NCBI RefSeq assembly: GCF_000155975.1
Contig: NZ_GG730303.1
Coordinates: forward strand, 611-64,610
Direction of reading: 5' to 3'
Length of the DNA stretch: 64,000 nt
Source: Citrobacter youngae ATCC 29220
Lineage (GTDB): Bacteria; Pseudomonadota; Gammaproteobacteria; Enterobacterales; Enterobacteriaceae
Shown here: piece after piece, positions 5,701-56,434 of the stretch
Numbering within the stretch: the stretch's first letter is position 1
Layout of the letters: every line of letters begins with the position of its first letter
Notes under the pieces: generated by a model
What the model was told of the DNA's origin: nothing
The model's input: the letters and a program-made list of their open reading frames with translations, nothing else
The model's database searches: none
Position numbers and translations under genes: made by a program

Positions 5701-8700
5701 TTAATCGTTGTGCCGACTAAAACGCCGTCTGACGACAACAAAGAAGACGGGAACAAAGAAGATTGCCAACAATGTTGCGGTCAGCATGCCCCCCATTACG
5801 CCTGTACCAACCGCATTCTGCGCACCACTACCCGCGCCGCGGCTGATAACCAGAGGCATAACCCCCAGAATAAACGCCAGGGATGTCATCAGGATAGGGC
5901 GAAGACGCATGCGAGATGCTTCCAGCGTCGCTTCGATCAACCCTTTGCCCTCTTTATCCATCAGGTCTTTGGCAAACTCGACGATCAGGATGGCGTTTTT
6001 AGCCGAGAGGCCGATAGTGGTTAACAGGCCAACCTGGAAGTACACATCGTTATTCAACCCGCGTATTGATGCCGCTAACAGTGCGCCAACCACGCCAAGC
6101 GGTACAACCAGCATCACCGAGAACGGAATCGACCAGCTCTCATACAGTGCGGCAAGGCACAGGAAGACAACGATTAACGAGATGGCATACAGCGCAGGAG
6201 CCTGGTTACCCGACAGTCGTTCCTGATAAGACATACCCGTCCAGTCATGGCCGATGCCGTTTGGCAGTTTCTCCGCCAGGCTTTCCATCAGCGCCATCGC
6301 TTCACCGGTGCTTCGTCCTGGAGCCGCTTCGCCTAACAGTTCCATAGAAGGCATACCGTTGTAACGTTCCAGGCGTGGTGAACCATAGACCCAATGTGAT
6401 GCGCTGAACGCAGAGAACGGAACCATTTCGCCATTGGAACTGCGTACATACAGATTGTTGATGTCTGCTGGCAGCATACGGTATTTGGCATCCGCCTGAA
6501 CGTACACTTTCTTCACGCGGCCACGGTCAATGAAGTCGTTGACGTAATAGCCACCCAGCGCAGCGGAAATGGTTTCGTTAATATCGGACAGCGAGACGCC
6601 AAGGGCTTGTGCTTTCTCCTGATCAACATCCAGCTTAAACTGAGGAGTATCTTCCAGTCCGTTAGGGCGCACGCGAACCAACAGATCGGGGTGCTTAGCC
6701 ACCATTCCCAGCAGTTGGTTACGTGCTTGCGTTAACGCCGCATGTCCCAGTCCGCCCTGATCGATCAGCTCGAAGTCGAAGCCGGTTGCGGTACCCAGTT
6801 CCACGATAGCGGGCATATTGAAGGGGAAGACTAACCCATCGCGGATCTGGCTGAACGCGCGCGTGGCTCGTGCAATGACCGCTTCAACACTATTTTCCTT
6901 GCCGCTACGTTCATCCCAGGGCTTGAGGCTAACGAATGCCAGACCTGAGTTTTGTCCCTGACCGCTGAAGCTAAAGCCGTTAACCGTAAAGACGCTTTCG
7001 ACGTTCGCTTTCTCATTGTTCAGGTAGTAGTGGGTGACCTGATCCAGCACTTTCTGAGTACGCTCTTGCGTTGCCCCTGCCGGGAGTTGAATCATGGTCA
7101 TAAATACCCCCTGATCCTCATCTGGCAGGAAGGAGGTCGGCAGACGCATAAACAGCACCGCCATCCCAATCACGATAATCAGGTAGACGATCAGGTAACG
7201 CCCGGTCTTACGCACAATACCGCTGACGCTATTGGTGTAATGGTTGACGCTGTGATCGAATTTGGCATTAAACCAGCCAAAGAAACCGCTTTTTTTCTCG
7301 TGATGCTCAGCCGATACCGGCTTCAACAGCGTTGCACAAAGCGCGGGGGTCAGGATCAGCGCTACCAGTACTGAAAGCGCCATTGCAGAAACGATGGTGA
7401 TTGAGAACTGCCGATAGATAGCCCCGGTTGAGCCGCCGAAGAAGGCCATCGGGATAAATACCGCAGACAGCACCATAGCGATACCGACCAGCGCGCCCTG
7501 AATTTGTGACATGGATTTTTCTGTTGCCTCTTTGGGCGGCAGATTATCCTCCATCATCACACGTTCCACGTTTTCCACCACCACTATCGCATCATCAACC
7601 AATAGGCCGATGGCGAGCACCATGCCGAACATCGTCAGGGTGTTTATTGAGTAGCCAAACGCGGCAAGTACAGCAAAGGTGCCCAACAATACAACAGGCA
7701 CGGCAATGGTTGGAATGAGCGTTGCCCGGATGTTTTGCAGGAACAAATACATCACGAGGAATACCAGTATGATTGCTTCAAACAGCGTTTTCACGACCTC
7801 ATGAATAGAGATAGTGACGAACGGGGTGGTGTCATACGGGTAGACCACCTTCATTCCCTGCGGGAAGAACGGTTGCAGTTCAACCAGCTTGGCTTTGATG
7901 GCGTTAGCGGTATCCAGCGCGTTTGCGCCGGTGGCCAGTTTGATCCCGAGACCGGATGCAGGCTTACCGTTAATACGCGCGACCACGTTGTAGTTCTCAC
8001 CACCCAGCTCAATACGCGCGACGTCCTTCAGATGAACAACCGAACCATCGCTGTTGACGCGTAACGTGACCTTCCCGAACTCTTCTGGATCTTTCAGGCG
8101 CGTCTGCGCGATGATTGAGGCGTTAAGCTGCTGATTAGGTAATGCAGGCGTTCCGCCTAACTGACCTGCGGCAATCTGATCGTTTTGTACCTGCAACTGA
8201 TTGATCACATCAACCGGCGTGAGCTGGTACTTGTTCAGCAAGTTCGCATCCAGCCAGATGCGCATGGCGTACTGCGCACCAAACAGCTGCACGTCACCTA
8301 CACCATTCAGACGGCTGATTGAGTCTTTAACGTTAGAGGCGACATAGTCGGAAATGTCATCCTGCGTGGTTTGTGGGTTATCAGAAACAAACCCCGCGAC
8401 CATCAAAAAGCTGCTGCTGGATTTCTCGACGCTGATCCCCTGCTGCTGAACTTCTTGCGGCAGTAAGGGGGTGGCGAGCTGCAGTTTGTTTTGGACCTGA
8501 ACCTGCGCGATATCCGGATCGGTGCCGGACTGGAACGTCAGCGTAATGGTTACGCTACCGGCCGAATCACTGGTCGAGGACATATACATCAGGTTATCGA
8601 TACCGTTCATGTTCTGTTCGATAACCTGCGTCACGGTGTCCTGCACCGTTTGCGCATCCGCCCCCGGGTAGGTGGCGGAAATCGATACGGCAGGGGGCGC

Positions 8701-51268: not shown

Positions 51269-52051
51269 ATGAACGCATTTGATTCGCAAGCTGAAAACTC
51301 TCCATCCACCATTGGCCGTAGCTTACGCAGCCGCCCGCTGGCGCGTAAAAAACTGTCTGAAATGGTTGAAGAAGAACTGGAGCAGATGATTCGTCGCCGG
51401 GAATTTGGCGAGGGGGAACAGTTGCCGTCAGAGCGGGAGCTGATGGCCTTCTTTAACGTGGGCCGTCCTTCCGTACGTGAAGCGTTGGCGGCGTTAAAGC
51501 GCAAAGGTCTGGTACAAATCAACAACGGCGAGCGCGCCCGCGTTTCCCGCCCTTCGGCTGATACCATTATCAGCGAGCTGTCCGGTATGGCGAAAGATTT
51601 CCTCTCCCATCCCGGCGGCATTGCCCACTTCGAGCAGCTGCGGCTGTTCTTTGAATCAAGCCTGGTGCGTTATGCCGCCGAACATGCCACTGACGAGCAA
51701 ATCGACCGGCTGGCGAAGGCGCTGGAGATCAACAGCCAGTCGCTGGATGACAATGCGCTGTTCATTCGCTCGGACGTTGATTTTCACCGGGTACTGGCGG
51801 AGATCCCCGGTAACCCCATCTTTATGGCAATCCATGTGGCGCTGTTAGACTGGCTGATCGCCGCCCGCCCGACCGTTCCGGATCAAGAGCTGTATGAGCA
51901 CAATAGCGTGAGCTATCAGCAGCATATCGCTATTGTCGAGGCGATTCGCCAGCGCGATCCTGAAGAAGCCGACCGCGCACTGCAAGAACACCTCAACAGC
52001 GTTTCCGCCACCTGGCACGCCTTCAGCAAAAATAAAAAATTGCGTAAGTGA
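51269..52051 (+). CDS. nanR: NanR, GntR-family repressor of sialic acid genes
   Basis: This 260-residue FadR-subfamily regulator represses nanATEKQ and is released by N-acetylneuraminate. The N-terminal wHTH is at about residues 30-100 ([29 protein letters not shown]). The helical effector domain with metal-binding histidines follows. It lies just upstream of nanA, and its GGTATA operator is present there. Confidence 0.95.
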
Positions 52052-52082
52052 TCGCGATCCTGACGATCGTTTAAACCCAAAA

Positions 52083-52196
52083 TCATTCAAGTCGCATCAA
52101 GGCGGCAAGAGAGCGAGTCCCCTGGAGCATAGATAACTATGTGACAGGGGGGGAGCGAACGCAGCCAACGCAGAGGCGGCTCGAAGGATGAAGAGT
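52083..52196. repeat. ERIC (IRU) element
   Basis: About 114 bases match the enterobacterial repetitive intergenic consensus. The ends are inverted (TCATTCAAGTCGCATCAAGG against TCATCCTTCGAGCCGCC). The core has GAGTCCCCTGGAGCATAG...AACTATGTGACAGGGGGGAG followed by CGCAGCCAACGCAGAGG. It lies between nanR and the nanA operator. Confidence 0.9.
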
Positions 52197-52253
52197 TTAG
52201 TGAAGCAGATCGCATTATAAGCGTTCTGTATTGTATTGCTGCTTATTTGATCT

Positions 52254-52276
52254 GGTATAACAGGTATAAAGGTATG
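52254..52276 (+). promoter_or_regulatory. NanR operator before nanA
   Basis: Three direct repeats of the NanR half-site occur: GGTATA at 52254-52259, GGTATA at 52263-52268 and GGTATG at 52271-52276. They lie 36 bases before nanA. The spacing is that of the E. coli nan operator; only the last base of the third repeat departs from the motif. Confidence 0.9.
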
Positions 52277-52311
52277 TAGTCAGATAACACTAATCATCGT
52301 CAGAGGTCGTT

Positions 52312-53205
52312 ATGGCAAGAGATTTAAAAGGCGTAATGCCAGCGTTGTTAACCCCATTCGATAACCAACAGCGGCTGGACGTTGAGAGCCTGCGCCGCTT
52401 GGTGCGTTTCAACATTGGTCAGGGGGTCGACGGGCTTTATGTCGGTGGCTCCACGGGTGAGGCCTTTGTGCAAAACCGCGCTGAAAGAGAGCAGGTGCTG
52501 GAAATCGTTGCCGAAGAGGCGAAAGGCAAGGTAACGCTTATCGCCCACGTTGGCACGGTGAGCACCGAAGAGAGCCAGCAGCTGGCGAGCGCCGCGCATC
52601 GCTACGGCTTTGATGCGGTTTCGGCCGTTACGCCGTTTTACTATCCGTTCAGCTTTGAAGAGCACTGCGACCACTACCGCGCAATTATTGATTCAGCGAA
52701 TGGATTGCCGATGGTGGTCTATAACATCCCTGCGCTGAGCGGCGTGAAACTGACGCTGGATCAGATCAACACGCTGGTGACGCTACCCGGAGTGGGGGCG
52801 CTGAAGCAAACCTCCGGCGATCTCTATCAGATGGAACAGATCCGCCGCGCTCACCCCGATCTGGTGCTTTATAACGGTTATGACGAGATCTTCGCTTCGG
52901 GTCTGCTGGCGGGCGCAGATGGCGGTATCGGCAGTACTTACAACATCATGGGATGGCGTTATCAGGGAATTGTGAAAGCGCTCAAAGAAGGCGACGTTCG
53001 GACGGCGCAAAAGCTGCAAACCGAGTGCAATAAGGTTATCGATCTGCTCATTAAGGTTGGCGTGTTCCGCGGCCTGAAAACGGTACTCCACTATATGGAC
53101 GTGGTTTCTGTTCCGCTGTGTCGCAAGCCGTTTGCCCCGGTAGATGAACGCTATCTGCCAGAACTGAAAGCGCTGGCTAACCAACTGCTGGCGGAAAAGG
53201 CGTAA
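52312..53205 (+). CDS. nanA: NanA, N-acetylneuraminate lyase
   Basis: This 297-residue class I aldolase splits sialic acid into ManNAc and pyruvate. The Schiff-base lysine is in [13 protein letters not shown], the partner tyrosine in [12 protein letters not shown], and the carboxylate-binding GGSTGEAF is near residue 45. It is the first gene of nanATEKQ, with AGAGG before ATG 52312. Confidence 0.97.
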
Positions 53206-53314: not shown

Positions 53315-54805
53315 ATGAGTACTTCTACCCAGAGCATCCCGTGGTATCGCCATCTCAATCGGGCGCAATGGCGGGCATTTTCTGCCGCCTGGCTGGGATA
53401 TTTACTTGATGGTTTTGATTTTGTGTTAATTGCCCTTGTGCTGACGGAAGTACAAGGCGAATTCGGTCTGACGACGGTACAGGCTGCCAGTCTGATCTCG
53501 GCCGCCTTTATCTCCCGCTGGTTTGGCGGGTTAATGCTGGGGGCCATGGGCGATCGTTATGGACGCCGCCTGGCGATGGTCACCAGCATCATTCTGTTCT
53601 CTGTGGGGACGCTGGCCTGCGGCTTCGCGCCGGGCTACACCACCATGTTTATCGCCCGTCTGGTGATCGGGATGGGGATGGCCGGTGAGTACGGCTCCAG
53701 CGCCACCTATGTTATTGAAAGCTGGCCTAAACACCTGCGCAACAAGGCCAGCGGTTTCCTGATCTCCGGCTTCTCCGTTGGCGCAGTGGTCGCCGCCCAG
53801 GTTTACAGCCTGGTGGTCCCGGTCTGGGGATGGCGTGCGCTGTTCTTCATCGGCATTCTGCCGATTATCTTCGCCCTCTGGCTGCGTAAAAATATTCCGG
53901 AAGCGGAAGACTGGAAAGAGAAACACGAAGGCAAAGCGCCGGTGCGTACGATGGTGGATATTCTCTACCGGGGCGAGCATCGGGTTATCAATATTCTGAT
54001 GACACTCGCCGCCGCATCCGCGCTGTGGTTCTGCTTTGCGGGCAACCTGCAAAATGCGGCCATTGTGGCGGTTCTCGGGCTGATATGCGCATTCATCTTC
54101 ATTAGCTTTATGGTGCAGGGCAGCGGGAAACGCTGGCCGACGGGCGTCATGCTGATGGTGGTCGTGCTGTTCGCTTTCCTCTATTCATGGCCGATTCAGG
54201 CGCTGCTGCCAACTTATCTGAAAACCGAGCTGCTGTACGACCCGTCTACGGTGGCTAAAGTGCTGTTCTTTAGCGGCTTTGGCGCGGCGGTCGGCTGCTG
54301 CGTCGGTGGGTTCCTTGGCGACTGGCTGGGCACCCGTAAAGCCTATGTCTGTAGCCTGCTGGCCTCACAGTTGCTGATTATTCCGGTATTTGCTATCGGC
54401 GGGGCAAACGTCTGGGTGCTGGGTTTATTGCTGTTTTTCCAGCAGATGCTTGGCCAGGGGATCTCCGGGATCTTACCGAAATTAATTGGCGGCTATTTCG
54501 ACACCGACCAGCGTGCGGCGGGTCTGGGCTTCACCTACAACGTTGGCGCACTGGGCGGGGCGCTGGCGCCGATCATCGGCGCGCTGATAGCCCAACGTCT
54601 GGATCTGGGTACCGCGCTGGGCTCGCTCTCTTTCGGTCTGACATTTGTGGTGATCCTGCTGATTGGTCTCGATATGCCGTCCCGCGTACAGCGCTGGCTG
54701 CGTCCTGAAGCGTTACGCACGCATGACGCTATCGATGGTCGACCGTTTAGCGGGGCCGTGCCGTTCGGCGGTGATAAAAGCGCCATGGTGAAATCCAAAA
54801 CGTAA
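53315..54805 (+). CDS. nanT: NanT, sialic acid:H+ symporter
   Basis: This 496-residue MFS transporter imports N-acetylneuraminate. It has the family motif [10 protein letters not shown] after TM2. Its 14 rather than 12 membrane spans, with an extra pair in the middle, are typical of NanT. The length equals E. coli NanT. GGGAGAG precedes ATG 53315. Confidence 0.96.
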
Positions 54806-54852
54806 TCCAATTGCCCGGCGTAAAGCTGGGCAACAGTGGTAAGGGAAGATGT

Positions 54853-55094
54853 ATGTCGTTACTTGAACAACTGGATAAAAAAATAGCCGCCAACGGCGGA
54901 TTGATTGTCTCCTGCCAGCCTGTTCCTGGCAGTCCGCTGGATAAACCCGAAATTGTCGCCGCGATGGCATTGGCGGCAGAGCAGGCTGGCGAAGCCATGC
55001 GCCACGGGGCGTGGGCGGTTACCGTCAGCTCTGCCATTACCCGACTGGAACATATTTGCCAGTGGTATACCGCGGCGATGAAAAAGACTGTGCT

Positions 55095-55098
<4 letters not shown>
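54853..55098 (+). pseudogene. nanE: NanE with large internal in-frame deletion (81 of about 229 residues)
   Basis: NanE normally converts ManNAc-6-P to GlcNAc-6-P. Here the first 46 residues ([16 protein letters not shown] to LAAEQAG) are joined directly to the last 34 or so ([12 protein letters not shown] to AAMKKTVL). About 148 central residues, with most of the TIM barrel and the catalytic residues, are absent. The conserved GSAIT near the end reads SSAIT. No stop or frameshift is present, and the stop overlaps the nanK start (ATGA). Activity is very unlikely. A second nanE elsewhere in the genome could substitute. Confidence 0.92.

Positions 55099-56434
<1,336 letters not shown>

Follow-up and report, generated by a model that had tools for sequence, protein, structure and literature searches.

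In-frame deletion of nanE at a 10-nt direct repeat in the nan operon of Citrobacter youngae ATCC 29220, whose genome holds a second full-length nanE gene

Background

In the Gamma-Proteobacteria examined in PMC2693436 nanE and nanK were always coupled, with the exception of Yersinia. The main survey of that paper, with its requirement of nanA, nanK and nanE in a span of 10 ORFs, did not take in split operons. Such arrangements have been described in PMC3716653, where nanE is placed outside the operon in Citrobacter freundii and Edwardsiella tarda (after an earlier source) and in Cronobacter sakazakii. Growth in M9 with sialic acid is reported there for C. sakazakii, C. koseri, C. freundii and E. 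tarda, and the Cronobacter NanE falls in one clade with NanE of C. freundii and Enterobacter. A duplicated nanE has been noted in S. Typhimurium (PMC3658417). The active site of Staphylococcus aureus NanE (SaNanE) is formed by Gln11, Arg40, Lys63, Asp124, Glu180 and Arg208; the kinetics of the Lys63, Arg40 and Asp124 variants are given as ND, and the Glu180Ala variant has about 0.05% of wild-type activity (PMC8482478).

In this work we have analyzed a nan operon in which, according to a preliminary description, nanE carries a precise in-frame deletion. We consider it very likely that this nanE is non-functional as the result of a deletion between 10-bp direct repeats, and that the loss is affordable because a paralogous NanE, designated here NanE2, can do the same step.

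Methods

The window is the whole stretch of DNA analysed, 64,000 nucleotides, corresponding to positions 611-64610 of contig C6 in a genome of 5.15 Mb and 10 contigs. The reference for the deletion was G001, which has the closest nan operon with an intact nanE. The genus survey covered 17 Citrobacter genomes, all of them searched (G000 is the window genome), and the family sample 119 genomes of 118 genera, with a NanT limit of E ≤ 1e-150; for six family genomes with NanE2-type scores or pieces the surrounding stretch was examined. Scars were sought as short ORFs in three frames ending at most 12 nt from the nanK start. The coupling survey comprised 81 loci, i.e. the window and 80 named loci, ten of which are the same records as genomes of the genus and family sets; 67 had a co-directional nanK with a clear start. 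Of the other 14, four had nanK divergent, eight lacked it in the stretch and two were unclear. For nanE2, dN/dS was calculated against 11 of the 12 relatives that carry the locus; G010, whose stretch (L217) contains the eno part only, was left out.

Results

Organization of the nan operon

The ORF list and reading of the sequence gave the operon order nanR, nanA, nanT, nanE remnant, nanK, yhcH/nanQ, with the following features:

51269..52051, + strand: nanR, repressor of the nan operon, 260 aa, intact open frame (ORF)
52254..52276, + strand: NanR-operator-like GGTATA repeats upstream of nanA (pattern scan)
52312..53205, + strand: nanA, N-acetylneuraminate lyase, 297 aa, intact, dN/dS 0.02 vs G001 (ORF, gene order as in E. 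coli)
53315..54805, + strand: nanT, sialic acid transporter, 496 aa, intact, dN/dS 0.03 vs G001 (ORF)
54853..55098, + strand: nanE remnant, residues 1-46 fused to 195-229 of a 229-aa enzyme, 148 codons gone in frame (comparison with G001, profile scan)
54982..54991, + strand: deletion junction, one copy of the 10-nt repeat CAGGCTGGCG (comparison with G001)
55095..55098, + strand: ATGA, stop of the nanE remnant overlapping the nanK start codon (sequence)
55095..55964, + strand: nanK, N-acetylmannosamine kinase, 289 aa, intact, dN/dS 0.20 vs G001 (ORF)
55967..56434, + strand: yhcH/nanQ, N-acetylneuraminate anomerase, intact, in-frame ATG at 55967, the listed ORF opening at an upstream TTG (ORF)

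The regulator gene is presumably nanR, by position and similarity, and GGTATA repeats are the motif of the NanR operator. In the 260-bp nanR-nanA gap (52052-52311) there seems to be an intergenic repeat-like stretch, after the end of nanR and before the GGTATA repeats. Apart from nanE, the operon is intact as had been claimed: nanR, nanA, nanT, nanK and yhcH/nanQ are all open and of normal length. The best named matches of NanT are from C. portucalensis (99%), C. werkmanii (98%) and C. braakii (98%), records of the window genome itself possibly being excluded. Two of the loci collected have doubtful names. L131, titled Chryseobacterium sp. 18061, has a nan operon with a NanT 88% identical to the Enterobacteriaceae NanT of the window; the record is probably mislabelled or contaminated. 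L122, titled Citrobacter freundii M-21, has a NanT of only 90% and a nanE-nanK pair divergent from nanT, as in the Atlantibacter loci L107-L109; its name is perhaps wrong.

The deletion and its junction

The remnant ORF consists of 81 codons and a TGA that overlaps the nanK ATG at 55095, the stop-start overlap of translationally coupled genes. From the nanT stop to nanK the sole length change relative to G001 is 444 bp, i.e. 148 codons, and 46 N-terminal and 35 C-terminal codons are kept. The in-frame deletion with retained ATGA overlap is thus confirmed, and the residue counts given earlier (46, about 34 and about 148) were correct within one residue. Between the window and G001 there are 11 mismatches in the 322 bp compared, a length that takes in 30 bp at the start of nanK.

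The breakpoint is ambiguous across 10 nt, and in G001 the same exact 10-nt repeat flanks the lost 444 bp on both sides. Of the wording "precise in-frame deletion" only the second part stands; in-frame deletion at a 10-nt direct repeat describes the event better. A short direct repeat at the junction is the usual footprint of deletion between such repeats, and slippage is suggested as the mechanism here because the lost stretch sits between two exact 10-nt repeats in G001. Insertion or excision of a mobile element was considered as a cause and rejected, the short repeats in 54600-55400 being unlike element ends and the 10-nt repeat fitting the junction better. The sole tRNA gene in the window is a tRNA-Thr at 263-338.

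In favour of an assembly artefact, a full nanE collapsed at the short repeat, is the perfect match of the 10-nt junction to both ends; the deletion is read from the assembled sequence. We regard such an artefact as very improbable, as the remnant has substitutions of its own, among them a Ser for the Gly of the VGSAITR motif (its C-terminal part has VSSAITR, that of G001 VGSAITR), and sister species bear other nanE deletions at the same place. Ten nucleotides are also shorter than the usual assembly k-mers and short for assembler collapse.

Activity expected of the remnant

The remnant is recognizable as NanE: with the full-length NCBIfam model PRK01130 it scored 82 bits in two stretches, against a cut-off of 189 bits. 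Its C-terminal piece alone reached 37.1 bits with Pfam PF04131 (cut-off 27), over profile positions 156-192 only. The six SaNanE active-site residues correspond to Gln22, Arg51, Lys74, Asp132, Glu184 and Arg212 of E. coli NanE. The remnant keeps the equivalents of SaNanE Gln11 and Arg208 and lacks those of Arg40, Lys63, Asp124 and Glu180. Because four of the six active-site residues are deleted, the 81-aa remnant should be inactive as an epimerase. Its open frame with retained start and stop would also suit a working mini-protein, e.g. a regulator or a subunit. We find this scarcely credible for a product that lacks the barrel core along with the four active-site residues and in whose retained part the Gly to Ser change falls within a signature motif. 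Moreover, the size is not conserved: the ten nanE-less genomes of the genus hold just 11-20 codons, from the two ends of nanE. An inactive remnant is the reading followed below.

A second epimerase gene

The preliminary description had reasoned that either a second epimerase exists or growth on sialic acid is lost, and had proposed a search of the whole genome for another nanE. The first alternative proved right. With PF04131 two places were found: the remnant and one full-length match, nanE2, without a stop at C8:215319-215915 (profile positions 1-191 of 192, E 8e-69). NanE2 passes PRK01130 with 316 bits against the 189-bit cut-off, is identical to SaNanE in 138 of 215 aligned columns and has all six active-site residues of the SaNanE type.

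The gene lies between eno and queE, downstream of a PTS EIIBC gene and with an RpiR-type regulator gene divergent from both. This PTS neighbour suggests that NanE2 has its own job. Its dN/dS against the 11 relatives is 0.03-0.07. In a pattern scan of the NanE2 stretch L003 no pair of NanR-type GGTATA repeats was found; NanR control of the locus was rejected on this ground, and for the same reason NanE2 may not be directly responsive to sialic acid. At L003:8608-8656, between rpiR and the PTS gene, there are inverted arms, TGATGATAATTTT and AAAATTTTCATCA, a possible operator of an RpiR-type regulator. The RpiR-type NanR of pneumococcus binds ManNAc-6-P (PMC12713135). By analogy, we propose that ManNAc-6-P may also be sensed by the regulator beside NanE2 and would then, as it accumulates, turn NanE2 on.

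Operon nanE and NanE2 in the genus

Among the 17 Citrobacter genomes the operon nanE is intact in six (G001, G002, G007, G009, G012 and G016), truncated in G000 and replaced by a short nanT-nanK scar in the other ten. The comparison with the same locus in relatives, proposed in the preliminary description, thus revealed scars of only 11 to 20 codons in 10 of the 16 other genomes, and loss of the operon nanE is not peculiar to the window genome. The rpiR/PTS-nanE2 locus is present in 13 of the 17 genomes and absent in G002, G009, G012 and G016, all four of which have the operon nanE. NanE2 accompanies every loss (11/11 genomes without an intact operon nanE) and is found in 2/6 genomes with an intact one; at least one full-length NanE is encoded in 17/17. 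The link between NanE2 and nanE loss gave p 0.006 in Fisher's exact test over the 17 genomes; once shared ancestry was allowed for it was not significant, as the well-supported branches gave no more than 2 independent pairs.

These data bear on the possibility that the pathway is dying: nanE loss would be its first step of decay, growth on sialic acid would be gone and NanE2 would be confined to the PTS substrate. The dN/dS of nanK in the window/G001 pair, higher than the 0.02-0.03 of nanA and nanT (though nanK of the pair G001/G002 stands at 0.11), may indicate some relaxation of nanK. The locus of NanE2, moreover, includes an RpiR-type regulator gene and showed no paired NanR-like sites. On the other hand, nanR, nanA, nanT, nanK and yhcH are all open, and nanA and nanT are strongly constrained as judged by dN/dS. 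Ten other genomes of the genus without the operon nanE still retain nanT and nanK, and C. freundii, for which a split nanE is reported, grew on sialic acid (PMC3716653). On balance a dying pathway appears improbable, and we retain the reading of a nanE loss made affordable by NanE2.

The family sample and Escherichia coli

NanT at E ≤ 1e-150 was found in 21 of the 119 family genomes, and all 21 had a full-length NanE match (profile positions 1 to 190-192). The other 98 genomes yielded a near-full-length NanE match in nine and a long partial one in two more; small genomes that have undergone reduction figure among the 98, so that the contrast is only rough. In five of the six genomes examined around NanE2-type matches nanE2 lies beside rpiR (G042, G050, G096, G102 and G109); both eno and queE accompany it in three, G042 shows only queE, and the G102 stretch contains neither. 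In G096 the eno-queE locus (L222 1865-3543) has lost the PTS gene and keeps rpiR and nanE2; NanT is present in G096, nanE2 is its sole NanE match, and its nanT runs straight into nanK (L173). The sixth genome, G080, holds rpiR and nanE2 in decayed pieces between eno and queE (L221 5490-5907) and has no NanT at E ≤ 1e-150.

In E. coli nanE was detected in 5359 of 5426 genomes, each time at ≥80% coverage, and nanT likewise in 5359 of 5426 (5356 at ≥80%), the two genes being counted separately. The PTS-nanE2 stretch is present at ≥80% in 465 of the 5426. No partial nanE occurred among the 5359 matches despite these spare copies, so that a spare copy permits the loss and does not itself cause it. 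The E. coli PTS-nanE2 stretch, e.g. NZ_CP075731.1 1033717-1036000, is 90-91% identical to that of Citrobacter among the ten best matches.

In-frame scars and coupling to nanK

In all ten scars the leader and the start codon of nanE remain, and a short frame runs into the nanK ATGA. The scar is 20 codons long in G003, G006, G011, G014 and G015, 17 in G008, 14 in G004, G005 and G010, and 11 in G013. A scar of 28 codons occurs in L103 and L104, loci titled Citrobacter; that of L103 is the same as in G109 (L171), which is assigned to another genus in the genome set. Counting the window (81 codons), six scar lengths are known, all in frame, and the scar ORFs all terminate at the nanK ATGA. For four or five separate deletions, assumed independent, the probability that all are in frame is by arithmetic (1/3)^4 to (1/3)^5, about 0.012 to 0.004.

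An ATGA overlap with an upstream frame of at least 10 codons was seen in 64 of the 67 loci with a co-directional nanK, the window included: 38/39 with intact nanE, 14/15 with a scar and 12/13 in which nanT runs into nanK. The loci without it are L142, L121 and L124. We read the scar pattern as probable selection for translational coupling of nanK, the translation of which would then depend on the frame upstream. In a literature search, with most subscription papers beyond reach, no description of in-frame nanE scars was found.

Some scars may be related. For the 17-codon scar an origin from the 20-codon one is possible: in the nanK tree (91/89) and in the nanA-nanT-nanK tree (87/84) its bearer, G008, clusters with a genome that has the 20-codon scar, and in the housekeeping tree (80/95) it lies near such a genome. 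The 14-codon scar could likewise be a trimmed form, although by eye its last codons resemble those of intact nanE. Such trimming would itself have had to stay in frame. The 20-codon scar is common to two clades (G003/G006/G015 and G011/G014) and may have been moved by recombination.

Loss, regain and recombination

The minimum number of state changes of the operon nanE was 5 on the relA-pyrG-eno housekeeping tree, 5 on the nanT tree, 4 on the nanK tree and 5 on the nanA-nanT-nanK tree; several forks in the trees are open, so loss is not always separable from regain. In the housekeeping tree G000 pairs with G015 (100/100), the bearer of a 20-codon scar. In the nanT tree it pairs with the intact G001 (100/98), and G015 comes next (97/95). 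The dS between G000 and G001 is 0.03 for the N-terminal part of nanE (46 codons), 0.13 for the C-terminal part (35 codons), 0.20 for nanT and 0.23 for nanK, a pattern that fits recent import of nanE followed by its deletion and is only a hint of it.

The nanE of C. braakii (G002, one of the four genomes without a NanE2 locus) groups with that of C. amalonaticus (100/100). In 100-column windows the two species are 93-100% identical in nanE, 77-95% in nanT and 59-82% in nanK, with abrupt changes of identity near the end of nanT and the beginning of nanK. The C. braakii nanE appears, from these comparisons, to be a single-gene import by recombination, and so regained. Comparison of L087 (C. braakii, 6488-7225) with L095 (C. 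amalonaticus) shows the nanE block of high identity, with about 70% in nanK beyond it. In G014 (L203) nanA and nanT stand unusually far from the rest of the genus (79% and 82%, respectively, against G000) and nanK groups with relatives; its nanA-nanT segment is likely recombinant.

Discussion

The favoured explanation for the window genome is as follows. NanT would import sialic acid and NanA would split it to give ManNAc. NanK would convert ManNAc to ManNAc-6-P, and NanE2, rather than the remnant, would turn this into GlcNAc-6-P for the presumed NagA/NagB; the scheme presumes that NanE2 is active and expressed on sialic acid in this strain. The in-frame remnant may survive because its translation delivers ribosomes to nanK through the ATGA, if nanK needs such coupling. 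On the genome sequence the pathway is very probably still whole. The trapping of ManNAc-6-P feared in the preliminary description is not expected in the strain because a second full-length epimerase gene is present in the same genome, and loss of growth on sialic acid seems unlikely. What looked like a metabolic paradox becomes ordinary redundancy; the operon read alone would wrongly predict a sialic-acid defect.

Tentatively, and with slightly less than even confidence, we propose a wider reading in which nanE is a module swapped in and out between nanT and nanK. It would combine at least four different in-frame deletions in the genus (five with the two further Citrobacter-titled loci), a coupling peptide left each time, the gene put back in C. 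braakii and at least one epimerase always present; the window would then represent an early-stage loss, perhaps of a second round. If this wider pattern holds, it offers a natural experiment on repeated gene excision with start codon, frame and coupling kept, and the need for nanE-nanK coupling becomes directly testable. The occurrence of several different nanE deletions, every Citrobacter scar being in frame and coupled, and the regain in C. braakii may be new. Specialists might wish to examine further the recurrent in-frame loss, with coupling kept each time, and the regain in C. braakii.

Comparison with known systems

The window shares with the annotated nanATEK-nanQ operon of E. coli the order from nanA to nanQ, the intergenic layout and the nanE/nanK ATGA overlap. 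It differs in the truncation of nanE, which is at least 80% complete in all 5359 E. coli matches. NanE2 resembles S. aureus NanE (PDB 6vva; PMC8482478) in the aligned columns and active-site residues given above; it adjoins an EIIBC PTS gene and an RpiR-type regulator gene, and the likeness is drawn from the protein alone.

The nearest counterparts are the closely related C. freundii, E. tarda and C. sakazakii, which like the window have nanA-nanT-nanK without a working nanE and a full nanE elsewhere (PMC3716653). The NanE of the clade described in that paper is probably the NanE2 described here. A part-deleted nanE with its repeat junction is still visible in the window, whereas the available text of PMC3716653 deals with the separate location and separate lineage of nanE and describes no scars. 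With nanA, nanT and nanK clustered without a working nanE and a full nanE elsewhere in the genome, the arrangement in the window is a further example of the known split nan type.
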